From Faecalibacterium prausnitzii (lineage in GTDB: Bacteria > Bacillota > Clostridia > Oscillospirales > Ruminococcaceae), in contig NZ_PRLD01000001.1 in NCBI RefSeq assembly GCF_003287405.1, positions 372,001 through 436,000 of the forward strand: a DNA stretch of 64,000 bases, in the 5' to 3' direction. The translations under genes and the position numbers were made by a program. Positions within the stretch are counted from its first letter, which is position 1; each line of letters starts with the position of its first letter. This document shows positions 1 to 58,221 of the stretch, in pieces. The notes under the pieces are model-generated. The model was given only the letters and a program-made list of their open reading frames with translations. It searched no databases and was not told the DNA's origin.

Positions 1-1
1 A

Positions 2-247
2 CTGGAGGATATGGATATGTCCGGGTTCCAGAAGGGGGCGACCTACGAGCAGATCAAGGCGTATGTGTTGGAGCATACTGGCTTGAAGGTGTCTTCCCTC
101 TACATCTCGCAAATAAAGCGCAAGTGCGGGCTGGATGTGGGGCAAAATTATAATCTGTCAAAGAAGGAAGATGCTAAAGTGCCAAAATGTCCGCCGGAGA
201 AGGAAGCGGCGATCAGGGATGCGTTGAAATATTTTCAGATGATTTAA
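2..247 (+). CDS. rlmD: Element-borne C-terminal tail of RlmD, 23S rRNA m5U methyltransferase (5' end outside window)
   Basis: An open frame enters from the left edge and ends at 247. Its 81 residues closely match the last part of the recombinase-fused tail at 10,350-10,596; both carry ATYxxIKAYVLE, QIKRKCG and KKEDAKVPKCPPEKEAAI. This is the C-terminal extension found after the methyltransferase domain in Clostridia RlmD proteins; the catalytic domain would lie upstream. The DNA of the two copies differs at many synonymous positions, so they are not a recent duplication. The best reading is that the element brought its own tail, so insertion left the chromosomal gene functional. A frame-internal ATG at 11 is probably not a start. 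Alternatively this is the tail of another rlmD-fused gene. Confidence 0.72.
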   Translation: MEDMDMSGFQKGATYEQIKAYVLEHTGLKVSSLYISQIKRKCGLDVGQNYNLSKKEDAKVPKCPPEKEAAIRDALKYFQMI

Positions 248-262
248 GAGTCTATTGAGCAA

Positions 263-297
263 AAAAGCAGTAAATCAATTTCAGATTTACTGCTTTT
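263..297 (+). terminator. rlmD: Intrinsic terminator after the rlmD tail
   Basis: A perfect 14-bp inverted repeat (263-276 and 284-297) with a 7-nt loop ends in TTTT. It starts 16 bases after the stop codon at 245-247 and would end rlmD transcription before the opposite-strand genes. It can also work for transcripts from the right. Confidence 0.8.
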
Positions 298-389
298 GCT
301 GGCCGGGCCGGTGAGCTACGAGCATTCATGACTTTTTGATAACTTGTTCCATACTGATATATTAAGCGGAAAGTTGTGGCCCTGTATTT

Positions 390-674
390 TCAGAGGGAAA
401 CGAATGCTCCTTGAATATATCCCACAAAATATGCCATCGCTATACTCAGTGCAATGCAACATATACATAGTATTTCAGCAATTACCTTTTTTTCGATTAT
501 TTCATTTATGGACTTTCCGTAATCAATAGTAGACCATACCATTGAAAGCAAAAATAGAATTGAAATCCATTGAGTATGAAATGATAGTCCCATGCTAACA
601 AATACATAGTTTGAGATGATGTAAAAAGCGCTTCTGACTACAACTTCTGTCACTTTTACAATCCGATTTCTCAT
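390..674 (-). CDS. Small membrane protein of unknown function
   Basis: A 94-residue protein read leftward from ATG at 674, with a GGGAG ribosome site just upstream; a longer in-frame start at 713 lacks one. It begins MRNRIVKV and shows three hydrophobic stretches, roughly residues 15-32, 35-52 and 70-90, with a polar loop (YGKSINEIIEKK) between the second and third. No family is recognised. It lies downstream of the lipoprotein, HAAS-domain and PadR genes on the same strand and may be part of that cargo unit, although a 160-base gap with a GC-rich hairpin (near 750-790) separates it. The local DNA is AT-rich compared with the replication genes of the element. Confidence 0.5.
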   Translation of the reverse strand: MRNRIVKVTEVVVRSAFYIISNYVFVSMGLSFHTQWISILFLLSMVWSTIDYGKSINEIIEKKVIAEILCICCIALSIAMAYFVGYIQGAFVSL

Positions 675-835
675 AGAATTCTCCCTCTCTGATAATACTG
701 TGGGCGGCAGCACTCCTTGCTGTCGCCCCTTGATTGCCTATCTGCAAAGGCGGGCGGGGCTGTCAACGGCGGCGCTTGCGCCGTTCATCTTGACCGTTGA
801 CTGGCTCGGCTGGCTTTGCTATTCCGTGATCTCTT

Positions 836-1279
836 TCAGTTATTGTCAAAGGAAATGTAGATAGTTAGACTATTGGGTATGTAGCTGATACTTAACCACT
901 TTTCGTCGTTTGATAAAAGTGTCCCGATAGAAACATAGTTTTCTCCCTCGATTTCCTCTGACACATTTTCAATTACGGAAAAGCCTTCTTGGTTCAAAAG
1001 CTCCATATACTCGTTATAGTCGTTTTCGCTAATACCGGTAAGGTTGATATTACAATTCTCATGTTCTGTATCAAGTGTAGCCCATGCAACCGTACCAGGC
1101 GCAACAGGAAGCCCCTCTGTGTACTCATTCTCAGGCCAAACACCCTCGTCCAATTTTGTAACACTATTAGATTGCGTATTGTTCTCATTGCTTGTCGGTG
1201 TAGATGAGGTATTTTGATTAGAACACGCAGCCAAAAAAATCATAATCATGATTGTGAATACAGAAATATATTTCTTCAT
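836..1279 (-). CDS. Putative lipoprotein
   Basis: A 147-residue protein with a classic lipoprotein signal: a lysine start (MKKY), a hydrophobic stretch and a lipobox ending LAACS, so Cys20 would be lipidated and the mature protein anchored outside the membrane. A Ser/Thr/Asn-rich linker follows (residues about 21-42), then an acidic globular part with alternating beta-like stretches. No domain is recognised. It ends the PadR-HAAS-lipoprotein unit and starts 3 bases after the HAAS gene stop, so the three are surely co-transcribed. Such triplets usually sense envelope conditions under PadR control, but the function here is unknown. Confidence 0.7.
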   Translation of the reverse strand: MKKYISVFTIMIMIFLAACSNQNTSSTPTSNENNTQSNSVTKLDEGVWPENEYTEGLPVAPGTVAWATLDTEHENCNINLTGISENDYNEYMELLNQEGFSVIENVSEEIEGENYVSIGTLLSNDEKWLSISYIPNSLTIYISFDNN

Positions 1280-1282
1280 TGG

Positions 1283-1741
1283 TTACCTCCTGTTTTTGTG
1301 TATGGTTCGGATAATTAACAAAAGAGCAATAGCTGTTGCTGCAAACCCAATAGCCAAAAGGATTTGCGAAATATCAAAGGCAAACGCGCCCTCAATCTGT
1401 ATATTTGTTGTCGCGTCGGCTTGTCCGATTGCTCCTTCTGGTACTTTTCCTGATTGTGTAACAGCATATACCGAAAAGGCAGCAGCCGCGATAACAAGCG
1501 CAGCAAGAGTAGAAATGATACCGTTCCGTTTTTTCGATTTGGTGTTATCAATGCCAAACTGTTCTGCGGTGCTGTCTGCAAATTCTTTTGGCGTCCCCAA
1601 ACGCTGGATAATCTGCTGCTCTGTTTCTCCATGCTCCATAGCAGACGCAAAAACTTCATTCAAGTCACGTACAACCTCTTTTTTCATTTTGCGTGGTAAA
1701 GATAGTTCCTTTTCAACCTGTTTGATATATTGTTCTTTCAT
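1283..1741 (-). CDS. HAAS/DUF1700-type membrane protein
   Basis: A 152-residue protein. Residues 1-65 form a helical HAAS-like domain (KQVEKELSLPRKMKKEVVRDL, then a RLGTPKEFAD motif) typical of DUF1700 proteins paired with PadR regulators. Two hydrophobic segments follow, about residues 75-93 and 122-143, ending in a basic tail (RTIHKNRR). The start overlaps the PadR stop by four bases, a sign of coupled translation. In characterised PadR-DUF1700 pairs the membrane protein transmits or tunes an envelope response; its partner here is probably the lipoprotein encoded just downstream. Confidence 0.72.
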   Translation of the reverse strand: MKEQYIKQVEKELSLPRKMKKEVVRDLNEVFASAMEHGETEQQIIQRLGTPKEFADSTAEQFGIDNTKSKKRNGIISTLAALVIAAAAFSVYAVTQSGKVPEGAIGQADATTNIQIEGAFAFDISQILLAIGFAATAIALLLIIRTIHKNRR

Positions 1742-2097
1742 TTGGATACCCTCGCTTGTTGATAACTTTCTATAAAGCCGTTTACGCAGTTTTCATAGCT
1801 TGACCAAAATAAGATTAGTTCATCAAGTACATTCCTGCCTTTATCCGTTAAAGAATAATACTTTTTTGAGCCGCCATTTGCCGCAGCCGGAGCCAATCGG
1901 CATTTGATTAGTTCTGCTTCCTGCAAACGATACAAAATGGGGTAAATGGTTCCCTCTTTCGCATATCCCAAAACAGACGCACTATTGTTCAATTCAGTTA
2001 TAATTTCATATCCATAAGTTTCCTTGCGTCCGATTAGGCACAAAAGTATCATTTCCAGAGAGCCTTTTTTGAATTGCTGGACATATTTGTTATTCAT
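1738..2097 (-). CDS. PadR-family transcriptional regulator
   Basis: A 119-residue winged-helix protein. The PadR signature is clear: GSLEMILLCLIGRKETYGYEI near the start, EGTIYPILYRLQEAELI in the recognition/wing region, and KKYYSLTDKGRNVLDEL, followed by a short C-terminal dimerisation helix. It heads a leftward operon with the HAAS protein and the lipoprotein, and PadR proteins usually repress their own promoter. That promoter should lie in the AT-rich stretch 2098-2160, where TATATT/TATAAT-like sequences are visible on the minus strand. The sensed ligand is unknown. Confidence 0.88.
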   Translation of the reverse strand: MNNKYVQQFKKGSLEMILLCLIGRKETYGYEIITELNNSASVLGYAKEGTIYPILYRLQEAELIKCRLAPAAANGGSKKYYSLTDKGRNVLDELILFWSSYENCVNGFIESYQQARVSK

Positions 2098-2659
2098 ATC
2101 GTCGCCTCTCTTTAGCTTTGCTATTTAGGCTCGCTAAGTAGCAACTATATTATATCTCTTCCGAAGTATCAGAGTCAATAGGCTTAACGAAAAAGTTACA
2201 AGATGTCTGTGTAAGGTAATGACAGAATAGCGGTGTGCTGGCAAACTATGCTTTATTTTGTTTTTTATCTAAATCATTCAATAGGGCGGTAGCATCCCTA
2301 TTGGCAAGGGGATTCCAAAAGGGAACAGCGTTCTCCTTTGTCTGGGGTGTTCAGAGGGGATAGTGTTCCCCTTTGACCGGAAGAATCCAAAGAAACCGGC
2401 GGTTTCGTGGCACACGATTTTCCGTAGGAAAGTCTAGTGTGTTATACCTTTGTGGAGCAGATGGCAGCCGGAATTGTAGCACACCCTGAAAAGTGTGGCC
2501 ACAGTTGCGGCGTTCTGGCGGGAAAGGTTGCCCCTTGCGGGGCAGCATAAGCGACAGAAAAAGGCTGGCAGGCGGTGCGGGCAAGCACTGTCTGTCAGCC
2601 GTGTCATTTGCGGAACAAAGGTATATCAAAGCCCCCGTCAGCCGCTGCTTCCCATCGTA
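2098..2659. other. Intergenic region of 562 bases between the PadR and sigma-factor units
   Basis: No convincing gene is present; short open frames here have no ribosome sites and no family resemblance. The left part (2098-2280) is AT-rich and should hold the PadR promoter. The middle contains short related motifs around GGGAACAGCGTTCTCC and GGGGATAGTGTTCCCC. An imperfect inverted repeat near 2412-2443 (CACACGATTTTCC / GGAAAGTCTAGTGTG) could be an oriT-like or regulatory hairpin. None of these has a confirmed role. Confidence 0.4.
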
Positions 2660-3322
2660 TCAGAACCACCACGGCAGCTTTCCGCGCAGGCTGTCCATCG
2701 CCTCGCCCTCCACCTTCTTTGTCCGGCTCTCGCTGAGATGGAAATGGAGCGCCGCGCCGATCAGCGGGTGCTCGATTCCATCGGTAAAGCCATAGCGGTA
2801 CAGCAGATAGGTCTGCTCTCTGGCTGTCAGCTTGTCCAGCGCCGCATACAATTCTATCAGCTGCTCTTTTTGGATATAGATTTGCTCCGGCGTTTGGGTG
2901 TGAGGGTCGGCTATGGCTTCGATCCGCAGCATCCGTTCATCCTCTGAGAGAACGTCATCCAGATATACTCTCTGGAAGCCGGGGGCGTCTTTCTTATCCA
3001 CCATCCGTTGCTCAAATAAACCGAGGGCGGCGCGGATGCAGTCCGTCATGGCGTTGCGGAGCGCCGGTGCTGCATAGGTCAGAAATTTCATGCCCCGTCC
3101 GGCATCAAACAAAGGGATCGCGTTCAGCAGGCCGATACTTCCCTCCTGCATCAAATCATCCAAATCAATTCCAATATCATTTTCATCCAGCCCCATGTTT
3201 CGGTATTGCTCCAGCGCAATTTTTCGGATGAATCCCAGATTCTTTTCCAGCAGAATGTCACGGGCAGCCGTATCCCCTTTCTGTGCCAGTCTGCACAGCT
3301 GCTCATTGCTCCGGGTCGGCAT
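2660..3322 (-). CDS. Element-encoded sigma-70-family factor
   Basis: A 220-residue protein with sigma region 2 (VEK-like AARDILLEKNLGFIRKIA, DLMQEGSIGLLNAI, FLTYAAPALRNAM, about residues 15-95) and a region-4-like C-terminus (LDKLTAREQTYLLYRYGF, then a helix-turn-helix-like segment to residue 215). DLMQEG and the region-2 aromatic FLTYA core are intact, so it should bind core RNA polymerase. It starts inside the last 20 bases of the upstream XRE gene, so the two are translationally coupled. This pairing suggests the XRE protein and sigma factor jointly control element genes. No dedicated anti-sigma factor is seen unless the XRE protein plays that part. Confidence 0.78.
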   Translation of the reverse strand: MPTRSNEQLCRLAQKGDTAARDILLEKNLGFIRKIALEQYRNMGLDENDIGIDLDDLMQEGSIGLLNAIPLFDAGRGMKFLTYAAPALRNAMTDCIRAALGLFEQRMVDKKDAPGFQRVYLDDVLSEDERMLRIEAIADPHTQTPEQIYIQKEQLIELYAALDKLTAREQTYLLYRYGFTDGIEHPLIGAALHFHLSESRTKKVEGEAMDSLRGKLPWWF

Positions 3323-4142
3323 TTTGCTTCTCCTGCGCGTGGTCTAAGGTGGATTGGAGAAATTCCGTCAGCGCCTGACCGAACTTGTCTAATGCTTCCT
3401 TTTGCACACCGTCCATCCCCGCTGCGCTCTGGGTAACGGCGGCGGAAATCATTTCGGGCGTGATGGTCGGAGTATGAACATCCGCCCCTTTGGTGAGTTC
3501 GGTAAACATCTGCTGAGTGATGCCCTTGGTCAAGGACTGCGCTGCTGTGAAATCGTTGCCGATCTCTTTCTTCACTTCCCGCAGCGCCGCCATAAATGTG
3601 TTCTGTATCATCGTCAGGTCTGCCTGATATACGGGAACTTTCTGCCGGTTGACAGTTCTGGCCGCCTGCACCGCAGCGTCTGTTTTATTGTTTCGGCGTA
3701 GCATGGCGCTGAGAGTAGTAAGCATCTGGTTCTGTCCGGCGAAACCGGCGGCCAGCGTATCGTCAAAATATTGCTCAATCATATAGGTGACTTCTGCAAA
3801 GCGAGGGCTTTCCAAAAGGCGGTTGACGATCTCTGCATTGGCTTTTCCGGTGTACAGATTCCGCGCCGCCTGCACCGACAGGCCCAGTTCTTCAATATCA
3901 AAATTTGTCCGGTCGGGCGTGTTGACTTCCCCCAGCAGGAAATCTGTGGAGACTTCAAACACTTTCGCAATGCGGAGCAAATGTTCTGTGCTGATCTTAT
4001 CAGTCTTACCGCTGACAAACCGGCTGATGGCGCTCTCGGTGCTGCCGATGCGGGTCGCCAGCTGTGCCTGGGTAATTTTATGTTCCTTCATAAGCTCCTG
4101 CATCCGCTGCCGGATATTGCCGGGCAGATAGGCTCCCTCCAT
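3303..4142 (-). CDS. XRE-family regulator with long C-terminal domain
   Basis: A 279-residue protein from ATG at 4142, chosen because GAGAGG lies about 8 bases upstream; a GTG at 4151 is the alternative. Residues about 5-70 form a Cro/CI helix-turn-helix (ITQAQLATRIGSTESAISRF, then TEHLLRIAKVFEVSTDFLLG). The rest is mostly helical with no recognised domain; residues 85-130 resemble the C-terminal part of several Clostridia element regulators. Transcribed leftward, divergently from the primase gene at 4376, it likely controls both promoters in the 230-base gap. The sigma-factor gene follows with an overlap. Confidence 0.78.
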   Translation of the reverse strand: MEGAYLPGNIRQRMQELMKEHKITQAQLATRIGSTESAISRFVSGKTDKISTEHLLRIAKVFEVSTDFLLGEVNTPDRTNFDIEELGLSVQAARNLYTGKANAEIVNRLLESPRFAEVTYMIEQYFDDTLAAGFAGQNQMLTTLSAMLRRNNKTDAAVQAARTVNRQKVPVYQADLTMIQNTFMAALREVKKEIGNDFTAAQSLTKGITQQMFTELTKGADVHTPTITPEMISAAVTQSAAGMDGVQKEALDKFGQALTEFLQSTLDHAQEKQNADPEQ

Positions 4143-4375
4143 GTGACGCACCTCTCTTCTGAAAACTCTCTTTATCCATTATACCTGATAAAACCAGCGC
4201 GGGCAAATGCTTTCCGCTGGCTTCGCCGCTCTGAGGTCTTGCATTTTTGCAAGATTTCAGGGCGGCGTTTTTTCATTTCTTGCACTTTTAGCGGATTTTT
4301 CGGTTTATAGGCTTTTTCCCCGTATATTCAGGCAGACGGGCAGATACCGTCAATAAATAATGGAGGACAAAGCCT

Positions 4376-4996
4376 ATGAATTTATTTGAAACTGTAAAAT
4401 CCGCTGTCACCGTGAAGCAGGCCGCCGAATACTACGGCTGTAAGGTCAACCGGGGCGATATGATCTGCTGCCCCTTCCACGATGACCGGCATCCCAGCAT
4501 GAAGCTGAACAGGGATTATTTCTATTGCTTTGGCTGCGGGGCTACCGGGGATGTGATCGATTTTGTGGCGCGGCTGTTCGGCCTGAGCAGCTACGAGGCC
4601 GCAAAGAAGCTGGCCTATGACTTTGGCATCGACCCGGACAAGCCCCCGGCAGCGATGGCTTTGAAAAAGCCCTATCCGCTGGCGCAGGATTTCCGCAACG
4701 ATGAGATACACTGCCAGCGGGTGCTCTGCGATTATCTGCATCTGCTGGAACGCTGGAAGGTCGAATATGCCCCGCAATCGCCGGAGGATGAACTGGATGA
4801 CCGCTTTGTGGAAGCCTGTCATATGATCGAGTATGTAAATGATTTGTTGGACGTTCTCATGTTTGCGGAACTGAAGCAGCGTGTGAAAGCGGTGGATATG
4901 CTGCTGAAGGACGGCACTATCACCGCGCTGGAGCAGCGGCTCAGACGTCTGGAAAAGGAGGTGCAGCACCGTGGCGAAGAACGAGCAATCGCGTGA
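4376..4996 (+). CDS. CHC2 zinc-finger DNA primase-like protein
   Basis: A 206-residue protein. The N-terminal 95 residues are a DnaG-type zinc-binding domain: CCPFHDDRHPSM and then YCFGCGATGDVIDF, giving the CHC2 ligand set (Cys, His, Cys, Cys). The TOPRIM catalytic domain is absent; the C-terminal half is helical and ends in charged coil. Such short CHC2 proteins partner with a separate P4-type helicase, here encoded immediately downstream with a 26-base overlap. Together they would prime and unwind the excised element. The homologous pair in IME-2 (21,803 and 22,359) has the same design. The ribosome site is GGAGG before ATG 4376. Confidence 0.87.
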   Translation: MNLFETVKSAVTVKQAAEYYGCKVNRGDMICCPFHDDRHPSMKLNRDYFYCFGCGATGDVIDFVARLFGLSSYEAAKKLAYDFGIDPDKPPAAMALKKPYPLAQDFRNDEIHCQRVLCDYLHLLERWKVEYAPQSPEDELDDRFVEACHMIEYVNDLLDVLMFAELKQRVKAVDMLLKDGTITALEQRLRRLEKEVQHRGEERAIA

Positions 4997-6344
4997 GGCC
5001 AACCAGCCCATCTGGTTTGACGGCAAGAGTATCAATGAAGCCCTGTTTTGTGATGATTTTCTCGGCAGACACAAAATCATCTACACAAACGGGGCTTTTT
5101 TCACGCCTGATGGCCGCGTGACCGATGAGCTGCCACTGCGTGGAGAAATTTTTGAGGAACTGAAATGCTGTGCGGTCAGCAATATCCCCCGCAAAATCAG
5201 CAATATCGTGGAGCTGATGAAGCTGGCGGCGCTGGTAGAGGATTTCCCGCCGGAGGCTGACCGCATTCATCTGGCAAACGGCACGTTGTTTCTGGATGGC
5301 TCCTTTACGGAGGGAAAACCGGACATCGTGCGTTGCCGCCTGCCGGTGGCCTATAATCCCGATGCGCCCACGCCGACCCGCTGGCTGGCTTTTCTGTATG
5401 GGCTTCTTTACCCGGAGGACATTCCCACTTTGCAGGAATATATCGGCTACTGCCTGATCCCCAGCAACAAGGGACAGCGCATGATGGTCATTAAGGGCAA
5501 TGGCGGCGAGGGTAAGAGCCAGATCGGCGCGGTGCTGTCCGCCCTGTTCGGCAGCAACATGAAGGACGGCAGCATCGGCAAAATTTCCGAGAACCGTTTT
5601 GCCCGCGCTGATCTGGAACACATTCTGCTGTGTGTGGACGATGATATGCGGATGGAGGCACTGCGGCAGACCAACTATGTCAAATCCATCGTCACCGCAC
5701 AGGGTAAAATGGATTTGGAGCGTAAAGGCAAGCAGAGCTATCAGGGATGGATGTGCGCCCGGCTGCTGGCATTCAGCAATGGCGACTTGCAGGCTCTCTT
5801 TGACCGCAGTGATGGCTTTTATCGGCGGCAGTTGGTGCTGACCGCCAAAGAGAAACCTGCCGACCGTGTGGATGATCCCGACCTGGCAGAGAAGATGAAG
5901 GCCGAGGTGGAGGGCATTCTGCTGTGGGCTTTTGCGGGATTGCAGCGGTTGGTAGCGAACAACTTCAAGTTCACCGAGAGCCAGCGCACCAGAGAGAACC
6001 GGGAGGCCGTCAAGCGGGACAACAATAACGTGTTTGATTTTCTGGAATCCGAGGGCTATATCCGGCTGAAAGCGGATGCGTCCATCAGTTCAAAGGATTG
6101 CTACGACATTTACCGGATGTGGTGCGAGGAAAATAGCCTGACTGCACTCAAACGCCGCAGCTTCAGCGATGCGCTGGTGGCAGCCTGCGGTAAGTACAAT
6201 CTGGAACACTGCAACACGATTACCAATTCGGCAGGACGCCGGGTATGGGGCTTTATGGGGATCGAGGCAGTGGCAAGGCCGCATATAAACGAGTTTACGG
6301 ACGCTTCACAGTGTACGTACGTACCGGAAGACTGGCGGGATTGA
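4971..6344 (+). CDS. Phage/plasmid primase, P4-type SF3 helicase
   Basis: A 457-residue protein. After an N-terminal domain (1-150) comes the D5/P4 helicase core: Walker A as GNGGEGKSQIG (about residue 178), Walker B-like LLCVDDDM, and an SF3 sensor region with LLAFSNGDLQALFDRSDGFYRR. This ring helicase opens DNA at an element origin and works with the CHC2 protein encoded just upstream. Its last bases form the left arm of a 15-bp inverted repeat (6313-6374), so the likely origin adjoins the gene. The C-terminal winged-helix region (FLESEGYI to the end) probably contacts that DNA. Confidence 0.85.
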   Translation: MAKNEQSREANQPIWFDGKSINEALFCDDFLGRHKIIYTNGAFFTPDGRVTDELPLRGEIFEELKCCAVSNIPRKISNIVELMKLAALVEDFPPEADRIHLANGTLFLDGSFTEGKPDIVRCRLPVAYNPDAPTPTRWLAFLYGLLYPEDIPTLQEYIGYCLIPSNKGQRMMVIKGNGGEGKSQIGAVLSALFGSNMKDGSIGKISENRFARADLEHILLCVDDDMRMEALRQTNYVKSIVTAQGKMDLERKGKQSYQGWMCARLLAFSNGDLQALFDRSDGFYRRQLVLTAKEKPADRVDDPDLAEKMKAEVEGILLWAFAGLQRLVANNFKFTESQRTRENREAVKRDNNNVFDFLESEGYIRLKADASISSKDCYDIYRMWCEENSLTALKRRSFSDALVAACGKYNLEHCNTITNSAGRRVWGFMGIEAVARPHINEFTDASQCTYVPEDWRD

Positions 6345-6374
6345 TTTCCGATCTGGTCGCCGGTACGTATGTAC
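6313..6374. repeat. 15-bp inverted repeat at the end of the helicase gene
   Basis: GTACGTACGTACCGG at 6313-6327 and CCGGTACGTATGTAC at 6360-6374 are inverted copies with one mismatch, separated by 32 bases. The left arm lies in the helicase coding region and the right arm beyond its stop. The position, directly after a replication helicase, suits an origin or a protein-binding site; a simple terminator is unlikely because no T-run follows. Confidence 0.6.
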
Positions 6375-6937
6375 GCAGCGATTGACCCTGTTACCTCATA
6401 TATTGTAGAGGCGCTTCATTTGGATAAAGTGGTCGTGCCCATTTTGGGTACACCTATTTTGATGTGTAAAAGTGGTTATGGATATTTTGTCCACCACCAG
6501 AACCGTGAAATTCTTCGCGCTTTTGTGCTGTGAAACAGGTGTGGTCATTTTGACCACACCTGAAGCGGTCAGTAAAAGCGGTAATTTTGCAGGCATATTT
6601 TAGAGCAATCTCAAAACAGCGAAATGTTTCTCTTTTATCCGTATACAGTTCGCCGGATGGCGGCTCACGGAACGACGTACAGATTGCAGCATTTTGTGAC
6701 AATACAGCCCGAACAGTGAAAAGTCCCGCATTTCTGTGAAGTCGAATATTCCGCCGTTGACCAACGATACGCAGGGAATCATTTCTATCGCAAAACAGCA
6801 TTTGCACAAATTTCACCATTGACCAAAGCCGGTGCGCTCCCCAGCGTAGCCGGTTCTTTTTATGACGCAACCGAAAATCATGTTTTATCTATCAAGTGAC
6901 AAAGGGCTTCACTTGCGAAAATGGAGGAATATATTTT
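6345..6937. other. Candidate replication origin / oriT region of IME-1
   Basis: About 590 bases without a convincing gene between helicase and relaxase operons. It contains three related ATTTTG-N(3-4)-ACACC-type motifs (near 6434-6448, 6483-6497 and 6547-6560), a perfect 12-bp palindrome with a 3-base loop at 6536-6562 (CAGGTGTGGTCA / TGACCACACCTG), and an imperfect GC hairpin near 6825-6855 upstream of the relaxase operon. Repeats plus palindromes beside a helicase and a MobV relaxase suggest an origin on the left and a transfer origin on the right. Which part is which is inference. Confidence 0.5.
6536..6562. repeat. Perfect 12-bp palindrome with TTT loop
   Basis: CAGGTGTGGTCA (6536-6547) and TGACCACACCTG (6551-6562) pair perfectly around TTT. 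There is no T-tract, so it is not an ordinary terminator. It embeds one of three ATTTTG-type repeats of the region and could be a binding site for the helicase, an origin hairpin or the relaxase recognition hairpin. Confidence 0.65.
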
Positions 6938-7156
6938 ATGAAGTCAAGTATCCGAAACGAAATCAAGGCGCAGATCATCCGCGCCGGTTACACCATGCAG
7001 GAAGTCGTTGACCAGCTGCACGATGAGTATGGGTGGAGCGACAGCGTATCCAATCTTTCCGGAAAATTGCAGCGGGAATCGCTGCGGTATCGGGAGGCCG
7101 TGGAGTTGGCTGACGTGCTGGGATATGACATTGTCTGGCAGAAACGGAGGGATTGA
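6938..7156 (+). CDS. Small helix-turn-helix-like protein, relaxase operon
   Basis: A 72-residue protein from ATG at 6938, set by GGAGGAA 8-9 bases upstream; an earlier in-frame ATG at 6896 has no such site. The sequence (IRNEIKAQIIRAGYTMQEVVDQL, then SDSVSNLSGKLQRES, then ELADVLGYDIVWQ) reads as a Cro-like five-helix fold. Small proteins of this sort often precede MobV relaxases and may act as auxiliary oriT-binding or regulatory factors; that role is inferred. Its stop is just before the relaxase start, sharing one operon. Confidence 0.7.
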   Translation: MKSSIRNEIKAQIIRAGYTMQEVVDQLHDEYGWSDSVSNLSGKLQRESLRYREAVELADVLGYDIVWQKRRD

Positions 7157-7158
7157 GT

Positions 7159-8145
7159 ATGGAAAAAGCACAATACGCGATTATGCGATTTGCCAAATAT
7201 AAGGGGCCTGAAATCGGCAATATCGAGGCCCATAACGAGCGCACAAAGGAAAAGTACGCCAGTAATCCCGATGTGGATACCAGCCGAAGCAAGTACAACT
7301 TCCATCTGGTCAAACCGCCCGGCAAGTACCGGGCCGAGTCAGAGAGGCAAATTGCCGCTGCCGGATGCCGTACCCGGAAAGACAGTATCCGTATGATCGA
7401 GACGCTGTTCACAGCCAGCCCGGAGTTCTTTAAGGGAAAGAAACGGGCGGAAATTCGGGTATTTTTCGAGGAAGCTCTGCACTTTCTGGAACAGCATCAG
7501 TCCAAAGAGACAATTATATCCGCCGTGGTGCATATGGACGAGAAAACGCCCCATATGCACCTTTGTTTTGTCCCTTTGACGGAGGATGGCAGGCTCAGCG
7601 CCAAAGACATCATGGGCAATAAAAAGAAGCTGACCTGGTGGCAGGATGAGTTTTGGAAACACATGGTCAAGAAGTTTCCAGATTTGGAGCGTGGCGAGAG
7701 CGCCAGCCTGACCGGGCGCGACCATATCCCGCCCCGCGTATTTAAGGAGATGACCAGACTGACCAAACAGAAAAGCAAACTGGAGGATCTGCTCACTGGA
7801 ATCAATCCCTTTAACGCCAAAAGCCGGGCGGAGGAAATCTGCAAGATTCTGGATAGCTATATTCCCAGCGTGGAGAAGATGGACACGCTGCTGCGGAAAT
7901 ATGGCGTGGCTTTTACGAAAACAGCATCCGAAAACAAAAAGCTGAAAACGAAAAATGCCGAGCTGGAAGAATCTCTTGCATCGGCGCAGAAGGTCAGCAC
8001 CCTAAAGCAGATCGAAGACCTCAAGCTGCGGCGCGACTATGACAGTGCCGTGGCGATTTTGGAACAGATACCGGCAGAAGTTTTGAACATCTATGCGCAG
8101 AGCAGCCATAGAGGAAAGGAGCGGCCTATTGAGCAAAGTTTATGA
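7159..8145 (+). CDS. MobV-family (Pre/Mob) relaxase
   Basis: A 328-residue protein from ATG 7159 with CGGAGG 8 bases upstream; a TTG two codons earlier is less likely. The N-terminus (MEKAQYAIMRFAKYKGPEIGNIEAHNER) and the catalytic metal-binding motif VHMDEKTPHMHLCFVPL (HxDExTPHxH, about residues 125-140) define the MobV relaxases of small Gram-positive plasmids and IMEs. It would nick oriT and pilot one strand into a co-resident conjugation machine. The C-terminal third is coiled coil (LEDLLTGINP to KQIEDLKLRRDYD). It is shorter than many plasmid Mob proteins (about 400-500 residues) but retains the catalytic domain. Confidence 0.88.
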   Translation: MEKAQYAIMRFAKYKGPEIGNIEAHNERTKEKYASNPDVDTSRSKYNFHLVKPPGKYRAESERQIAAAGCRTRKDSIRMIETLFTASPEFFKGKKRAEIRVFFEEALHFLEQHQSKETIISAVVHMDEKTPHMHLCFVPLTEDGRLSAKDIMGNKKKLTWWQDEFWKHMVKKFPDLERGESASLTGRDHIPPRVFKEMTRLTKQKSKLEDLLTGINPFNAKSRAEEICKILDSYIPSVEKMDTLLRKYGVAFTKTASENKKLKTKNAELEESLASAQKVSTLKQIEDLKLRRDYDSAVAILEQIPAEVLNIYAQSSHRGKERPIEQSL

Positions 8146-8326
8146 TGATCCGAAATATAATGCGGCATTTGACCGCTGTGTTGATGTGATGGCGCGGCTG
8201 TTGCAGAAGTACGGGCCACAGCTGTTGGGGCAGATGCAGGAGACTGAGAAGGATGGCCGTACACAGTCTGCGGTATCAGGAAAGCAACCCGTTCCTGTGT
8301 ATCAGGAATTTGACAAAGCCGCTTGA
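8129..8326 (+). CDS. Small protein downstream of relaxase, unknown function
   Basis: A 65-residue protein starting at TTG 8129, supported by AAGGAG 7 bases upstream; it overlaps the relaxase stop by 17 bases. The sequence (SKVYDDPKYNAAFDRCVDVMARLLQKYG) is amphipathic helix followed by a polar tail. No domain is recognised. Its overlap and spacing say it is the last gene of the mobilization operon; an accessory role for the relaxase is a guess. Confidence 0.55.
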   Translation: MSKVYDDPKYNAAFDRCVDVMARLLQKYGPQLLGQMQETEKDGRTQSAVSGKQPVPVYQEFDKAA

Positions 8327-8339
8327 TATAAATTAAATT

Positions 8340-8390
8340 TACACGTTGCGTATTTGTTTGGCGTATGCTATAATAAATACGCAACGTGTA
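8340..8390 (+). promoter_or_regulatory. Promoter inside a perfect 16-bp inverted-repeat operator
   Basis: TACACGTTGCGTATTT (8340-8355) and its exact inverse (8375-8390) flank a strong sigma-A promoter: TTGCGT at 8346-8351, a 17-base spacer, and TATAAT at 8369-8374. The left arm covers -35 and the right arm covers the start point, so a dimeric repressor bound to either or both would shut the promoter. It drives the HTH gene (8415) and the recombinase (8647). The HTH protein itself is the obvious candidate autorepressor. Confidence 0.85.
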
Positions 8391-8414
8391 TTTTTGCTTT
8401 ATGGGGTAAATGAA

Positions 8415-8660
8415 ATGGACTGCAAAACCAAAATAAAAGAATTGCGGGAAAGCACTGGCATGAATCGCAAGGAATTTTGTAAATATTTTCAGATTCCCTA
8501 TCGGACTGTGACAGAATGGGAACTGGATAACCGCCATGCGCCGGAATATGTGCTCCGTTTGTTGGAGTACTACATTCAGAATGAAGGTCTGGCGAAGAAG
8601 AAAGTTACGGATGAATGTTCAGAGATGGAAGAAAGGGGCGGCCTGCATGAAAAAAACTAA
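8415..8660 (+). CDS. Small HTH regulator upstream of recombinase
   Basis: An 81-residue protein from ATG 8415. KIKELRESTGMNRKEFCKYFQI and PYRTVTEWELDNRHAPEYVLRLL form a Cro/CI-like helix-turn-helix ending around residue 58, followed by a charged tail. Its last 14 bases overlap the recombinase gene, so both are produced together from the operator-bearing promoter at 8340-8390. It likely represses that promoter and so controls excision. Some related small proteins act as recombination directionality factors, which is an alternative role. Confidence 0.78.
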   Translation: MDCKTKIKELRESTGMNRKEFCKYFQIPYRTVTEWELDNRHAPEYVLRLLEYYIQNEGLAKKKVTDECSEMEERGGLHEKN

Positions 8661-10596
8661 AACAAAATGCTATCTCTACACACGGGTATCTACTTCCATG
8701 CAGGTGGACGGATACAGTCTGGATGCTCAGCGAGACAAACTGCGGAAATACGCTGAATACGAAGATATGGTAGTGGCTGGTGAATATTCTGATGAAGGCT
8801 TTTCCGGCAAGAATATTCAGGGCAGGCACGAATTTCAGCGGATGCTGCAAGACATTCAGGACGGCAAAGACGGTGTGGAATATGTGCTGGTGTTCAAGCT
8901 GTCCCGGTTTGGCAGGAATGCCGCTGACGTTCTGAATTCCTTGCAGCTGATGCAGGATTTCGGTGTCAATCTGATTTGTGTGGAAGACGGCATTGACAGT
9001 TCCAAAGATTCCGGCAAGCTGATGATTTCTGTCCTTTCTGCGGTGGCAGAGATAGAGCGTGAAAATATTCGGACACAGACGATGGCCGGACGGGAGCAGA
9101 AAGCCCGTGAAGGAAAATGGAACGGCGGCTTTGCCCCTTATGGATACCGTCTTGAAAAAGGCGAACTGTTGATTGCTGAGGATGAAGTGGACGTGATCCG
9201 CACCATCTTTGACCGCTATATTCACACCAACGATGGCGTCAGCGGTGTGGCGAAATATCTGAACCGGCAGGGCTTTGTGAAGAAGCTGCGGCAGAACGGC
9301 ACCATTCCCGGTTTTTCCGCCAGCTTTGTGAAAAGTATCATTGACAATCCGGTATATATGGGGAAAATTGCCTATGGCAGACGCCGGACAGAGAAGAAGA
9401 TTGGTACCCGGAATGAGATGCACGTGGTTGAACAGTCGGAGTTTCCCGTGTACGAGGGAAAGCACGAGGCTATCATTTCTGAAGAAGATTGGAATCTCGC
9501 GCAGGAGAAACGGAAAGTCAATGCTTATCGGCGCGAGAAGGTCAACGATCCTACCCATGCGCATATTCTGTCCGGCATTCTGAAATGCCCCTGCTGTGGT
9601 AAAAGCCTATATGGGAATATTGCAAAAGCCCACAGCAAGGACAAAAAGACCCGCTATTACTATTACTGCAAGAATACGGTAACGCCAACAGGCCACGAGT
9701 GCACTTTCCGGCTGAACATTGAACAGACAGAGATGAACCGCATGGTAGCGTCAATTATCTCCGCTATGGTCAGCGACCCACGGTTTGCGGATGCAATCAA
9801 GGCGAAAATTGGCTCCGCTGTCGATACGAACGACTTAGAGAAACAGCTGGAAGCGTTGCAAGCGCAGCTTCGGCAGACGTTAGGCACAAAAGCCCGCCTG
9901 GAACGGCAGATGGACGGTTTGGATGTGAATGACCCGTATTATGACCGGAAAATTTCTGATTTGCAGCGTCGCTATGACGAGCAATATGGTAGAATAGATG
10001 AGATTGAAGTCCAGATTGACGATGTGCAAAGCCAGATACGGAGCATCCGGCAGGAGAAAATTTCGGGTAATAATATCTACCGCCTGTTGCTGGCATTCGA
10101 TCAGGTCTATGAAGCAGCCTCCGAAGTGGAGCGGAAGGAGTTCATGCGGGCGTTTATTGAGCGGATTGAGTTATTCCCGGAAAAGCAGCCGGATGGCAAC
10201 TGGATTAGGAAGATTATCTTCAACTTCCCTGTCCCGGTGAATGGAACAGAAGTGACAGAATTGCCCTTGGAAAATGAAACAATGGTCGAAACGGTATGTT
10301 TATTGTCCAAACTAAATGTCAAGCATCATATCGAGGTGGAAATCACGATGGATGAGTTGGATTTGACGGCAGCGGAGAGTAAAGCCACTTACGATGAAAT
10401 CAAGGCTTATGTACTTGAAAAATTCGGCTTTAAAGTCAGTCAGCTTTATATCGCCCAAATAAAACGGAAATGTGGCATTATCGAGAGAAAGAACTATAAC
10501 CAGTCAAAAAAAGAAGATGCCAAAGTGCCGAAGTGCCCGCCAGAGAAAGAAGCGGCGATTATGGATGCACTCAAGCATTTCCAGATGATTCCATAG
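8647..10596 (+). CDS. Large serine recombinase, C-terminally fused to the displaced rlmD tail
   Basis: A 649-residue chimera. ATG 8647 overlaps the HTH gene and follows AAAGGGG. Residues 1-150 are the resolvase domain (YTRVST with catalytic Ser, then LSRFGRNAADVLNSL); 160-290 the recombinase domain (NGGFAPYGYRLEKGELLI); about 318-350 a zinc ribbon (CPCCGKSL ... YYYYCKN ... HEC); about 395-480 a coiled coil. From about residue 545 the sequence becomes RlmD: METVCLLSK matches the conserved end of the methyltransferase, and the remainder is its Clostridia-specific tail, ending at 10,596. The junction is the attR site. The recombinase would catalyse integration and excision at rlmD. Whether the fused tail is tolerated in the enzyme is untested. 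Confidence 0.85.
   Translation: MKKTKTKCYLYTRVSTSMQVDGYSLDAQRDKLRKYAEYEDMVVAGEYSDEGFSGKNIQGRHEFQRMLQDIQDGKDGVEYVLVFKLSRFGRNAADVLNSLQLMQDFGVNLICVEDGIDSSKDSGKLMISVLSAVAEIERENIRTQTMAGREQKAREGKWNGGFAPYGYRLEKGELLIAEDEVDVIRTIFDRYIHTNDGVSGVAKYLNRQGFVKKLRQNGTIPGFSASFVKSIIDNPVYMGKIAYGRRRTEKKIGTRNEMHVVEQSEFPVYEGKHEAIISEEDWNLAQEKRKVNAYRREKVNDPTHAHILSGILKCPCCGKSLYGNIAKAHSKDKKTRYYYYCKNTVTPTGHECTFRLNIEQTEMNRMVASIISAMVSDPRFADAIKAKIGSAVDTNDLEKQLEALQAQLRQTLGTKARLERQMDGLDVNDPYYDRKISDLQRRYDEQYGRIDEIEVQIDDVQSQIRSIRQEKISGNNIYRLLLAFDQVYEAASEVERKEFMRAFIERIELFPEKQPDGNWIRKIIFNFPVPVNGTEVTELPLENETMVETVCLLSKLNVKHHIEVEITMDELDLTAAESKATYDEIKAYVLEKFGFKVSQLYIAQIKRKCGIIERKNYNQSKKEDAKVPKCPPEKEAAIMDALKHFQMIP
10284..10315. other. 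Probable attR crossover region in rlmD
   Basis: The recombinase frame passes into RlmD sequence around the codons for METVCLLSK (10,281-10,310). Large serine recombinases cross over at a central dinucleotide in a short shared core, so the core must lie here and recur just left of the window. The exact dinucleotide cannot be assigned from one junction. Confidence 0.55.
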
Positions 10597-13141: not shown

Positions 13142-13624
13142 TTGCAGGAAGAAGTTGAAAACAAATCGGTGGCGATTAGTATCAAAGCCACCAAGCTGAC
13201 TGCCAATGTGCTGAAAGCCGCACTCCTGAAAGCCCTTGCGGAAATGGAGAAAAAGCAGAAAAATCCCAAGGTCTACAAGGGCAAACAGAGTGTGAAACAC
13301 CTTGTCCGGCAGGGAGTTGGGGTCAGCAACATCGAAATCACGGACGGCAACATCAAGTCTTTTGAGAAAGTTGCCCGGAAATACGGTATTGACTTTGCTC
13401 TCAAAAAGGATGTTTCTACACAGCCGCCCCGGTATCTGGTCTTTTTCAAGAGTAAAGATGCCGACGCACTGACGGCGGCATTCCGGGAATATTCCGGTAA
13501 AGTCGTGAAAAGCCAGTCCAAGGAGAAGCCGTCCATCCGCAAGCAGCTTTCCAAACTCCAGGAAGTGGTCAAGGATATGGCAAAATCCCTCTCCCGGAAC
13601 AAGAGCCAGGAGGTGGACAGATGA
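13142..13624 (+). CDS. PcfB/DUF3801-family conjugation protein
   Basis: A 160-residue protein from TTG 13,142 preceded by AAAGGAGTGATGAGG. It has the DUF3801 pattern: VAISIKATKLTANVLKAALLKAL, then GKQSVKHLVRQG, FEKVARKYGIDFALKKD and YLVFFKSKDADALTAAFREY. PcfB of the enterococcal pCF10 system links relaxase to the coupling protein, and here its stop overlaps the VirD4 start (ATGA), which fits that partnership. The C-terminal 35 residues are basic coil. Confidence 0.82.
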   Translation: MQEEVENKSVAISIKATKLTANVLKAALLKALAEMEKKQKNPKVYKGKQSVKHLVRQGVGVSNIEITDGNIKSFEKVARKYGIDFALKKDVSTQPPRYLVFFKSKDADALTAAFREYSGKVVKSQSKEKPSIRKQLSKLQEVVKDMAKSLSRNKSQEVDR

Positions 13625-15405
13625 AGAAATTGCCAAAAATCAATACTTCCAAGCTGCTAAAAGCGGCTTTGCCGTATATCCTGGTCGGCCTGATGGCTAC
13701 CAAGCTGGGGCAGGCGTACCGCATGGCATCCGGCGGCGATGTGCTGGATCGGATTTTTGGGGCGTTCCTCAAAATCGGGGAAGCCTTTACCAATCCCCTG
13801 CCCAGCCTGCATCCGTTTGACCTGCTGGTGGGGGCTGCCTGCGGCGCTCTGCTGTGGTTTATCGTATACCAGAAATCCAAGAATGCCCGGAAATACCGGC
13901 GTGGTGCGGAGTATGGGACTGCCCGATGGGGAAATGCAAAAGATATTGAGCCGTTCATCGACCCGGATTTTTCGCAGAATATCCTGCTGTCCGAAACGGA
14001 ACGTCTGACGCTGGGAAAAATTGCAGACCCCGAAAAGAGAAACGTCAATCTGAATGTGCTGGTCATTGGGGGGAGTGGTTCGGGAAAGACCCGCTACCAC
14101 ATTAAGCCCAATCTTCTCCAGATGAACGCATCGTATGTCTGCTCCGATCCAAAGGGTACGGTTATCGAGGAAGTCGGGCGGGCACTGGTGCGTGGCGGGT
14201 ACAAAATCAAGGTTTTAAATACCATTGATTTTTCCTGTTCCATGCACTACAACCCATTTGTCTATCTCCATAGCGAAACGGACATTCTCACCCTTGTCAC
14301 GGTTATTATGACCAATACCCAGGGAGAAGCCAAAGGCGGGGACGATTTCTGGCAGAAAGCGGAAGCCCTGTTGTATCAGGCACTGATCGCTTATATCTAC
14401 TATGAAGCCCCAGCCGAGGAACGCAACATGAATACCCTGCTGGATATGCTCAATGCCTGCGAGTGCCGGGAGGACGACGAGAACTTTAAATCAGCGGTTG
14501 ACCTGCTGTTTGAACAGTTGGAACAGCGCAATCCCGACCACTTTGCGGCAAGGCAGTATAAAAAATTTAAGATGGCGGCGGGAAAAACTCTAAAAAGCAT
14601 ACTTATTTCCTGCGGGGCCAGATTAGCCCCATTTGATATTGCCGCCGTCCGGGAGATGATGTCCTATGATGAATTAGAGCTTGAAAAGCTGGGTGACGAG
14701 AAAACCGCCCTCTTTGCGGTGGTTTCCGATACCGACCCGACGTTCAACTTCATTTCAGCCATGATGTACTCCCAGATGTTCAACGTACTGTGCGACCGGG
14801 CGTTGAAAGTCTATCATGGCAGGCTCCCGATCCATGTAACCTGCCTGTTTGATGAGTTCGCAAACCAAAAAATTCCGAACTGGGAGCATTTGGTTTCCGT
14901 GATCCGGTCGAGGAATATATCTGCCCACATCGTCCTCCAGACGTTCAGCCAGCTTAAAGGAATGTATAAGGACAATGCGGAAACCGTTGCCGGGTGCTGC
15001 TCAACCATGCTGTTTCTGGGCGGGAAAGAGGAAAGCAGCTTAAAGATGGTGTCCGGGCTTTTGGGAAAAGAAACCATTGACACCATGAATGAAAGCGATT
15101 CCCGTGGTGCCCAGCGTACCTACGGTCTGAACTATCAGAAGCTGGGCAAAGAACTGATGAGCGTGGATGAGCTGGCTGTCATGCCCTCCAGTCGCTGCAT
15201 CGTCCAGGTGCAGGGTGTCCGCCCATTCTACTCCAAGAAGTATGATCTGACGAAGCATCCCCAGTACAAGTACACGGCAGACGCCAACCCCAAGTTTACC
15301 TTTGATGTAAAGACATACCTGCAACACCGGCTCAAAGTCAAGCCGGAAGAAGAATTTGAGGTCTATGACCTCGGAGAGATAGAACAGCCCCAAGCGGCTG
15401 CCTAA
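13621..15405 (+). CDS. VirD4/TraG-type type IV coupling protein
   Basis: A 594-residue protein. Two membrane segments lie near residues 15-32 and 60-82, followed by the cytoplasmic ATPase: Walker A GGSGSGKTRY (about residue 150), DPKGTVIEE, and Walker B CLFDEFANQKIP (about residue 405) with LQTFSQLKGMY. This is the VirD4/PcfC coupling-protein family that delivers the relaxase-DNA complex to the secretion channel. Length and motif order are normal. It overlaps PcfB by four bases and is followed directly by a strong terminator (15,404-15,453), so later transfer genes may rely on readthrough or another promoter. Confidence 0.93.
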   Translation: MKKLPKINTSKLLKAALPYILVGLMATKLGQAYRMASGGDVLDRIFGAFLKIGEAFTNPLPSLHPFDLLVGAACGALLWFIVYQKSKNARKYRRGAEYGTARWGNAKDIEPFIDPDFSQNILLSETERLTLGKIADPEKRNVNLNVLVIGGSGSGKTRYHIKPNLLQMNASYVCSDPKGTVIEEVGRALVRGGYKIKVLNTIDFSCSMHYNPFVYLHSETDILTLVTVIMTNTQGEAKGGDDFWQKAEALLYQALIAYIYYEAPAEERNMNTLLDMLNACECREDDENFKSAVDLLFEQLEQRNPDHFAARQYKKFKMAAGKTLKSILISCGARLAPFDIAAVREMMSYDELELEKLGDEKTALFAVVSDTDPTFNFISAMMYSQMFNVLCDRALKVYHGRLPIHVTCLFDEFANQKIPNWEHLVSVIRSRNISAHIVLQTFSQLKGMYKDNAETVAGCCSTMLFLGGKEESSLKMVSGLLGKETIDTMNESDSRGAQRTYGLNYQKLGKELMSVDELAVMPSSRCIVQVQGVRPFYSKKYDLTKHPQYKYTADANPKFTFDVKTYLQHRLKVKPEEEFEVYDLGEIEQPQAAA

Positions 15406-20156: not shown

Positions 20157-21737
20157 ATGCCCTGCCCACACAACGAAATCACGATTGTTCAGCGCAGCCA
20201 GCGGCAGTCTGCGGTTGCCGCCGCTGCTTACCAAAGCGGCGAAAAGCTGTTCTGTGAATACGACCAGCAAGTGAAGCACTACCCGGAAAAGCGTGGTATT
20301 GTCCACAATGAAATCCTGCTCCCACCTAATGCCCCACAGGAATATGCAGACCGCAATACTTTGTGGAACGCCGCCGAAGCGGTGGAAAAACAATGGAACT
20401 CCCAGCTTGCAAGGCGGTGGGTGCTTACCATCCCCAGAGAGATACCGCCCGACCAGTATGCTGTCCTTGTCCGGGAGTTTTGTGAGCAGCAGTTTGTTTC
20501 CAAAGGCATGATTGCTGATTTTGCAATCCATGACCCCCATCCGCCGGGACACAATCCCCACGCCCATGTCATGCTCACTATGAGGGCAATGGACGAACAT
20601 GGAAAATGGCTTCCCAAGAGCCGCAAGGTTTATGACCTTGACGAAAACGGGGAACGGATAAAACTTCCGTCCGGCAGATGGAAAAGCCACAAGGAGGATA
20701 CGGTTGACTGGAACGACCAGAAGTATTGCGAAATCTGGCGGCATGAATGGGAGGTCATCCAGAACCGCTATCTGGAAGCCAATGACCGCCCAGAGCGTGT
20801 GGACTTGCGTTCTTATGCCAGACAGGGGCTTGATATTATCCCTACTGTCCATGAGGGAGCTGCTGTCCGGCAGATGGAAAAGCGGGGTATCCAGACGAAC
20901 ATCGGCAACCTGAACCGGGAAATCAGAGCCGCCAACCGCCTGATGAAGTCCATCCGGCAGCTTATCCAAAACCTCAAAGGCTGGATTACCGAGCTGGGAG
21001 AAAAACGGAAAGAACTGCTTGCACAAAAGGCGGCGGAGGAAGCGACACTTCTTCCCAATCTACTGATGAAATATATGGAGATACGAAAGGAAGAACGGAA
21101 GGACTGGACGAGGTCTGGACAGAACCGGGGGACTTCACAGGACTTAAAGGCAGTCAGCGAAGCCCTGTCCTATCTCCAGCAAAAGGGGCTTTCCACTGTG
21201 GAGGACTTAGAAGCATTTCTGGAATCTTCCGGGAAATCAGCCGCAGATTACCGCAATCAGATGAAGCCAAAGGAAGCCCGAAGCAAAGTGATTGACGGGA
21301 TTCTTGCCAGCCGGACAGACTGCAAGGAATGTAAGCCTGTCTATGAGAAGTACCAGAAGATATTTTTTAAGAAAACAAAGGAGAAATTCAAACAGGAACA
21401 CCCGGAGGTTGCCCGGTATGAAAAAGCCGCCACCCACCTTGCCAAGCACCCAGATGATAAGGACAGTACCCAAAAGGAGCTGCAAGAGGAGCAGGAAACG
21501 CTTCTGGAAGAAATCGCAGAGTTGAAAGTACCACTGACCGAGGTACAGGAGGATTTGAAGAAGCTGCGGGACATCCGCTACTGGGTACGGAAAGCCACAC
21601 CCGGCACAGAGGAAAGTAAAGAGCCGCCCAAGAAGCAGCCCATCAAGGAAGTCTTGCAGGATAAGGCAGACGAGAAAAAGGCTCAAAGAACCGCCCCGGC
21701 ACAGGCGAAACACAGACAACAGGATATGGAACTTTAA
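20157..21737 (+). CDS. MobA/MobL-family relaxase of IME-2
   Basis: A 526-residue protein from ATG 20,157 after AAAGGAGG. The N-terminal 240 residues are the MobA/MobL nuclease: catalytic tyrosine in VAAAAYQSGEKL, then HNEILLPPNAP and the metal-binding histidines in HDPHPPGHNPHAHVML. The C-terminal half is coiled coil and basic, ending QAKHRQQDMEL. It corresponds to TnpZ/MobL of the Tn4451-like elements. It would nick the IME-2 oriT and lead a strand through a conjugation channel, such as the one its host ICE encodes. Length is typical. Confidence 0.9.
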   Translation: MPCPHNEITIVQRSQRQSAVAAAAYQSGEKLFCEYDQQVKHYPEKRGIVHNEILLPPNAPQEYADRNTLWNAAEAVEKQWNSQLARRWVLTIPREIPPDQYAVLVREFCEQQFVSKGMIADFAIHDPHPPGHNPHAHVMLTMRAMDEHGKWLPKSRKVYDLDENGERIKLPSGRWKSHKEDTVDWNDQKYCEIWRHEWEVIQNRYLEANDRPERVDLRSYARQGLDIIPTVHEGAAVRQMEKRGIQTNIGNLNREIRAANRLMKSIRQLIQNLKGWITELGEKRKELLAQKAAEEATLLPNLLMKYMEIRKEERKDWTRSGQNRGTSQDLKAVSEALSYLQQKGLSTVEDLEAFLESSGKSAADYRNQMKPKEARSKVIDGILASRTDCKECKPVYEKYQKIFFKKTKEKFKQEHPEVARYEKAATHLAKHPDDKDSTQKELQEEQETLLEEIAELKVPLTEVQEDLKKLRDIRYWVRKATPGTEESKEPPKKQPIKEVLQDKADEKKAQRTAPAQAKHRQQDMEL

Positions 21738-21802
21738 CAGGCACTTGCCATTTTCAATCAGAGAATGTCAGGTGCTTTTCTTATTTTCAAGGAGGGATAG
21801 AT

Positions 21803-22447
21803 TTGAATGTATTTGAAGCTGTGAAGCAGTCCGTCACAACAAGACAGGCTGCGGAGCATTATGGAATCCATGTAGGTCGGAACGGGATGGCTTGCTGCCC
21901 GTTCCATAATGATAAAACCCCAAGCATGAAGCTGGATCGGCGTTACCACTGCTTCGGCTGCGGTGCGGATGGGGATGTGATTGATTTTGCCGCCGCCCTG
22001 TATGGGCTGGCAAAGAAAGAAGCCGCCGTACAACTGGCAAATGACTTCGGGCTTTCCTATGAGGACTGGAAACCGCCGGGAAAGGCAAAAAAGCCCAAGC
22101 CCCGGCAGAAATCCCCGGAGGAACAGTTTCAGGAAGCAAAGAACCGCTGCTTCCGTATCCTTGCCGATTATCTCCACTTGCTTATGGCATGGAGAACGGA
22201 ATATGCCCCGCACTCCCCAGAGGAAGCCTTTCATCCCCGGTTTGTGGAAGCCTTACAAAAGCAAGCCCATGTGGAATATCTGCTGGATGTGCTGCTGTTC
22301 GGGGAGACAGAGGAAAAAGCGGCTTTGATTGCGGACTACGGAAAGGATGTGATACAGCTTGAACAGCGAATGGCAGAGCTTGCAGCCGCAGACGCAGCAA
22401 GAACTAAAAAACACCATGAACGCCATGCAGCCGCCCCAGAGCATTGA
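21803..22447 (+). CDS. CHC2 zinc-finger primase-like protein of IME-2
   Basis: A 214-residue protein from TTG 21,803 after AAGGAGGG. Residues 1-95 are the DnaG-type zinc domain: CCPFHNDKTPSM and HCFGCGADGDVIDFAAALYG. There is no TOPRIM domain. It is homologous along its whole length to the IME-1 protein at 4376, including DYLHLL and the WR-EYAPHSPEE segment. It overlaps the VapE gene by 89 bases, more than usual, which suggests tight coupling; the overlap depends on the TTG start chosen for VapE. Confidence 0.86.
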   Translation: MNVFEAVKQSVTTRQAAEHYGIHVGRNGMACCPFHNDKTPSMKLDRRYHCFGCGADGDVIDFAAALYGLAKKEAAVQLANDFGLSYEDWKPPGKAKKPKPRQKSPEEQFQEAKNRCFRILADYLHLLMAWRTEYAPHSPEEAFHPRFVEALQKQAHVEYLLDVLLFGETEEKAALIADYGKDVIQLEQRMAELAAADAARTKKHHERHAAAPEH

Positions 22448-58175: not shown

Positions 58176-58221
58176 GGAGATAGCCCCCTTTCTTTTTGTG
58201 ATTTGGTTGGTTTGACATGGC

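Follow-up and report, generated by a model that had tools for sequence, protein, structure and literature searches.

The window analysed here is a 64,000-nucleotide (nt) stretch of the Faecalibacterium prausnitzii genome G000 (an assembly of 70 contigs), at C18:372001-436000. Its left edge falls within rlmD (also called rumA), an rRNA methyltransferase gene, in whose last codons an integrative and mobilizable element (IME) has inserted; a larger second element follows. We find that the IME exchanged the 3' ends of rlmD and of its own recombinase gene in frame, and that the end gained by RlmD looks like a recombinase domain rather than a part of RlmD. The principal features are as follows.

1 to 247, + strand: 3' part of rlmD, with tail A; the start of the gene, C18:370598, lies beyond the left edge of the window
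1 to 10287, no strand: IME, 10,349 bp, with its left GA core 62 bases before base 1, at C18:371939-371940
8647 to 10287, + strand: body of rec1, a large serine recombinase (Resolvase, Recombinase, Zn ribbon)
10288 to 10289, + strand: GA crossover core where the IME meets the next element, at the first two positions of a Glu codon
10288 to 10596, + strand: tail B with its stop, putative left end of the neighbouring element, in frame with rec1
10288 to 64000, continuing to a GA at C18:443957, no strand: second element, 61,669 bp, ending inside its own recombinase gene, rec2

A sequence-only reading of the window had proposed that two diverged copies of an RlmD tail bracket a mobilizable element, and this holds: the copies at 38-244 and 10384-10590 share 71% nucleotide identity over 207 nt with zero gaps, their products are 63% identical (E 1.2e-36), and between them lie ~10 kb carrying Mob_Pre, CHC2 and DUF5906 genes. 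Tail A is the end of rlmD, whereas tail B is the end of rec1, whose open reading frame (ORF) runs from the ATG at 8647 for 649 codons with no internal stop, encodes Resolvase, Recombinase and Zn_ribbon_recom domains (Pfam/NCBIfam scan), and matches the end of RlmD over its last 102 residues. Extending the sequence left of base 1 revealed the complete rlmD and the left GA core. The same reading took the left copy to complete a disrupted rlmD; it does complete the gene, of which the ORF at 2-247 is the 3' end, but the reading frame is not disrupted, running intact across the window edge for 549 codons (C18:370598-372247). Similarly, the right copy is indeed fused in frame to the recombinase, but it is not the host's original tail displaced: by its position and nearest relatives, tail B is apparently the second element's left end.

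The boundaries of the exchange emerge from comparison with an empty site in the related genome G026, together with alignment of the IME to a second copy. The rlmD of G026 is 98% identical to that of G000 over the first 440 residues, lacks the element and either tail, and ends after Glu in nine other residues (CVLLMSKAQ*); an alpha-galactosidase gene lies ~0.4 kb past it, compared with ~82 kb away in G000. Homology of rlmD to G026 ends four bases before GA in G000 and G005 and five in G022, and continues 7 bases beyond the G in G029 and G006. In G029, a recombinase 78% identical to rec1 ends in CVLLMSKAQ*, and the DNA that follows matches the DNA after G026 rlmD for 258 nt at 91%, starting from the G of GA. 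On this comparison, the swap is seen on both sides. The second IME copy (L135, Oscillospiraceae POC01) is 98.8% identical over 10,355 columns, in a match that begins at the left GA and stops 4 bases beyond the right GA at 10288-10289; it lies in a lipoprotein-like gene, an apparent secondary site, with tail A again in frame. A third copy (L136) lies in an rlmD whose product is only 46% identical to that of G000 over residues 17-440, while its tail is identical to tail A (100% over the 77 residues compared). Both of these copies retain both ends, and L137 holds only part of the IME. The proposal that each insertion exchanges the RlmD tail is thus borne out by the L135 ends, the L136 tail, the G026 empty site and the reciprocal G029 end.

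Across the genus, 31 genomes including G000 were searched and 25 rlmD ends were readable; the search pattern missed 4 of 30 loci (L056, L062, L064 and L065, of which L056 was read separately), and L060 and L061 lie at contig edges. Ten of the 25 ends are long-tailed and 15 are short, the short ones taking many unrelated forms. A rec1-family recombinase (E <=1e-60, near full length) accompanies 4 of the 10 tailed genes and none of the 15 short ones, and in G034, from a different genus, a tailed rlmD and such a recombinase are both present. The tail had been taken as a normal part of Clostridia RlmD, which is supported neither by these 15 tail-less ends nor by its presence in only 21 of 148 genomes class-wide. 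A second RlmD-like gene, which seems to be a further target, carries a tail in G009, G029 and G030 and none in G000, G005 and G026; in G029 a recombinase fragment lies 3' of it. G009 and G025 have a second attachment (att)-like sequence right after the rlmD stop. The ~57-nt block between the two att-like sequences (L047, L055) has its own stop and is nearly the same before different ends, resembling a minimal cassette or the remnant of a deletion.

Exchange of recombinase tips extends beyond the genus. Among the best 80 of 473 confirmed rec1 relatives from a genome scan, 37 recombinases form 77 pairs with identity >=95% in the 150 nt leading up to GA, and the 30-nt tips differ for all 37. Mean pair identity falls across GA from 0.97 before it to 0.45 (+3 to +32) and 0.27 (+33 to +62). 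Four of the 80 loci were left unassigned in this survey (L174, L176, L178 and L190), and some of the assigned tips do not resemble RlmD (L135, L139, L169 and L172 among them). An upstream RlmD lies within the available flank at 8 of the 80 loci, and it is tailed at five (L136, L168, L175, L178 and L193). The suggestion that the enzyme always carries part of the host gene is not supported where an RlmD domain is meant: the tail domain on rec1 appears to be a copy from a neighbouring element. At a plain site, as in G029, the recombinase does bear a short host end.

We asked whose tail this is by following it in other genomes. Class-wide, the 21 genomes with a tail match include G000, and the 20 tail loci outside G000 comprise 11 RlmD genes, 1 recombinase and 8 orphan or free-standing copies. 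In viral contigs, recombinases are the main carriers (53 of 75 tail loci, with 4 RlmD and 18 small or other proteins). Thirty-seven of the 53, as split by a single regular expression and with near-identical contigs included (22 left at 97%, fragments L286 and L289 excluded), lack an RlmD-like att motif ahead of the tail and are arranged colinearly with rec1; they are 31-43% identical to it in the body and 53-68% in the tail. Rec1 with tail B aligns to one such fixed-tail recombinase (L275) along residues 10-638 of 648 at 43%. In a quick tree, all 15 sampled fixed-tail recombinases form one clade (Shimodaira-Hasegawa-like approximate likelihood ratio test, 96), and body and tail distances co-vary within the class (r=0.84, n=22). 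Three free-standing tail homologues of ~70 residues (L232-L234) lie beside regulator-, HNH- and MazF-like ORFs, named by eye.

Tails at element left ends follow their recombinase (r=0.63, p=0.00005, n=11), and for RlmD carriers only (n=10) they track the recombinase (r=0.61, p=0.002) more closely than RlmD (r=0.21, p=0.14); as the rows are related, these p-values are optimistic. Right-end tails show no such relationship to their recombinase (r=-0.17, n=11; r=-0.02, n=24, the larger set excluding L243, L283 and L306, 3 of 16 att-type viral loci). Among the left ends of rec1-family elements in these genomes, the best matches to tail B come from G034 (84%) and G005 (80%), whose recombinases group with rec2 in the quick tree; of all tails found, the nearest is the one that G009 carries on its RlmD paralogue (93%). 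The linker form of tail A is that of G029, L138 and L168, whose recombinases share 77-88% identity with rec1. Because of the linker forms, the nearest tails and the recombinase grouping, we read tail A as the domain of rec1 and tail B as that of rec2. Taken together, these comparisons suggest that the tail belongs to the recombinase as its C-terminal domain and is passed on to RlmD.

Family searches place the domain only loosely. No Pfam or NCBIfam family was found on the tail stretch (the first recombinase query included tail B), and the best match of the tail profile to PDB sequences, at E 0.13, is not meaningful. The tail weakly matches PHROG 27283, a 69-position family without assigned function (E 5.7e-05). 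AlphaFold models reached a predicted local distance difference test (pLDDT) score of 66 with 19 sequences and 77, with three helices, with 46 sequences. At E 0.001, Foldseek returned nothing from PDB for both models or from BFVD for the second; its PDB rows include the LacI-type regulator-DNA complexes 1rzr and 1bdh (E 4.8 and 6.6), and a helix-turn-helix reading of the model is only a guess.

The explanation we favor, with a probability of roughly 0.8, is that crossover of the IME at GA in rlmD moves the recombinase's own C-terminal domain onto RlmD. The IME would integrate via its large serine recombinase, with crossover at a GA dinucleotide (part of a Glu codon) among the last codons of rlmD, and the element's own crossover site would fall within the recombinase gene, where a linker joins the catalytic body to a C-terminal domain of ~76 residues. 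Both genes would be cut in the same codon phase and their ends exchanged in frame, because GA has the same phase on both sides at the listed rlmD-type sites (22 in rlmD and 7 in recombinase genes; as sites were chosen by a Glu/Asp codon pattern, the GA itself, here and in the tip survey, is not independent evidence). RlmD would gain the recombinase's C-terminal domain together with an ETVVLLS-like stretch; this stretch, supplied by the left ends, looks like the last residues of tail-less RlmD. The recombinase would gain the resident end, either short (mostly 7-13 residues after Glu) or the C-terminal domain of an earlier element. Comparison shows the boundaries, the exchange in frame, that the tail comes from the element, and its permanent fusion to related recombinases. 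We infer that in G000 the 61.7-kb element arrived first, leaving tail B on rlmD, and that the IME came second, passing its own tail A to RlmD and taking tail B onto its recombinase, which in the circular form would carry tail A. As a tentative idea with a real but minority chance of being right, the domain might set the circle-form recombinase for integration and its removal upon insertion might impart another directionality; the RlmD-borne domain, expressed from a housekeeping promoter, might work in trans, either in controlling directionality or in guarding the site, and tandem neighbors might re-arm recombinases with foreign domains.

Several points weigh against the favored explanation. 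A search of viral contigs for the circle junction by DNA pattern found none, although this is a weak test. A tail-less RlmD lies upstream of the recombinase at L190, L195 and L200, and if these loci represent the left ends of elements, the recombinase can sometimes do without the domain. The quick tree places neither the fixed-tail nor the att-type recombinases as the older. In the 11-element left-end test, the 61.7-kb element and L138 were paired with their tails by position, and our IME and L136 are one element; without the tail B row, L138 and L136 (n=9) the two values lie closer together (recombinase r=0.50, p=0.013; RlmD r=0.32, p=0.057). Moreover, any element gene would co-vary with its recombinase, so the claim that the tail is a recombinase domain rests on the fixed-tail class. 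Finally, the free-standing homologues show that the domain also exists outside recombinases. Together with the weak PHROG match and the tail-less RlmD genes beside att-type recombinases, they speak for a different history, in which the domain began as a small free-standing mobile-element protein that recombinases captured, with no meaning for integration. This overlaps the favored explanation on anatomy and differs from it on function; we consider it doubtful, since the fixed fusion is common to one clade and co-varies with the body, and left tails follow their recombinase.

Less likely still is that the tail is an ancestral domain of Clostridia RlmD that elements captured as an attP arm restoring the gene. 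RlmD is the carrier at 11 of the 20 class-wide loci, and ratios of nonsynonymous to synonymous divergence (dN/dS) for tails on RlmD are ~0.05-0.34 in computable pairs, which include G001-G002 and G002-G003, where no such recombinase was found in either genome (these assemblies are fragmentary). Against an ancestral domain stand the restriction of the tail to 21 of 148 genomes, the short end at the empty site, the 37 recombinases that bear the tail without an att motif, and the disagreement of body and tail distances in RlmD (G000-G005, body dN 0.008 and tail 0.247; G005-G034, body 0.419 and tail 0.106). That the fusion is an assembly artefact on a chimeric contig is extremely improbable: the genome is in 70 contigs, but the tailed rlmD and recombinase arrangement recurs in other genomes, two of them single-contig (G005, G029), and the same IME is found with both ends at L135 and L136 and in part at L137.

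The remaining IME genes, named by family scan, are listed here.

1283 to 1741: HAAS-domain gene, after the PadR-like gene
1738 to 2097, - strand: PadR-like regulator
2660 to 3322, - strand: sigma-70-like factor
3303 to 4151, - strand: Cro/C1-type helix-turn-helix regulator
4376 to 4996, + strand: CHC2 zinc-finger primase-like protein
4971 to 6344, + strand: DUF5906/D5-like protein
7153 to 8145, + strand: Mob_Pre relaxase

The relaxase and the element's own recombinase are as expected of an IME, and no conjugation apparatus was found in it (10 ORFs plus the recombinase were scanned, the rest judged from the ORF list). The second element, by eye, encodes coupling-protein-, relaxase- and type IV secretion-like ORFs, among them a TraG/VirD4-like ORF at 13621-15405; its recombinase rec2 (C18:442304-444004) is 52% identical to rec1. 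Within it, the stretch at 20157-25863 looks like a nested mobilizable element: it holds an unrelated serine recombinase and ORFs resembling a further relaxase and a helicase/primase. A group II intron-type reverse transcriptase ORF (46194-48077, by eye) separates the 38364-45461 and 48161-50689 pieces of a very large helicase/methylase-like ORF. The cargo at 56030-63638, by eye, comprises a MATE-type transporter ORF and a pair of ORFs similar to metal P-type ATPases. Beyond the 3' end of rec2 lie type I restriction genes (by eye), a third related recombinase fragment and then the alpha-galactosidase gene, from which we infer a third, decayed element. Elsewhere in G000 (L009, C44:211717-217348), genes that look by eye like ribH, ribBA, ribE and ribD come after an orphan tail, with part of a recombinase gene ~5 kb along; in G009 a tail and a partial recombinase are similarly spaced (L115, C1:2300273-2305969). 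The element family may have left a relic here that carries riboflavin genes.

In Streptococcus, as described in Ambroset 2016 (PMC4701971) and Coluzzi 2017 (PMC5357655), integrative and conjugative elements and IMEs inserted in rumA through a single serine integrase exchange 3' ends reciprocally with it. The Faecalibacterium element shares with them the target gene, a single large serine recombinase (PF00239, PF07508 and usually PF13408), a short direct repeat (2-21 bp in Streptococcus, the 2-bp GA core here) with one copy in rlmD and the other in the recombinase gene, and the reciprocal swap. The streptococcal attR likewise lies inside the integrase gene, whose two product forms have been proposed to differ in function (PMC4701971). 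The streptococcal exchange changes the reading frame of both proteins (PMC4701971), a trait that is not strictly defining, whereas here the phase is kept. Also unlike in those elements, as far as the accounts go, the transferred piece includes a conserved 76-residue domain that is permanent on related recombinases, and stacked elements swap domains. In CTn5 of Clostridioides difficile 630 and 630 delta erm, rumA is reported in van Eijk 2015 (PMC4320837) to be fused to an element ORF, CD1844A. Myxococcus phage Mx8, as cited in PMC4701971, has attP inside its integrase gene, and integration swaps a 112-residue C-terminus for one of 13, the modified integrase being reported to be less active; Mx8, however, uses a tyrosine integrase in another host. 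In the open-licence literature, as far as it was accessible, we found no description of a recombinase domain as the transferred piece, moved in frame and passed between neighboring elements: the reciprocal rumA/integrase exchange is known, while a recombinase origin of the transferred domain did not appear there.

Such an origin would explain the extra domain on some gut-bacterial RlmD proteins, and it turns the described exchange of rumA and integrase ends into the idea that a recombinase's domain is removed by its own reaction and stored on a host enzyme. Serine recombinases mined from integrated elements may accordingly be without their native C-terminus, which matters for genome-editing tools.

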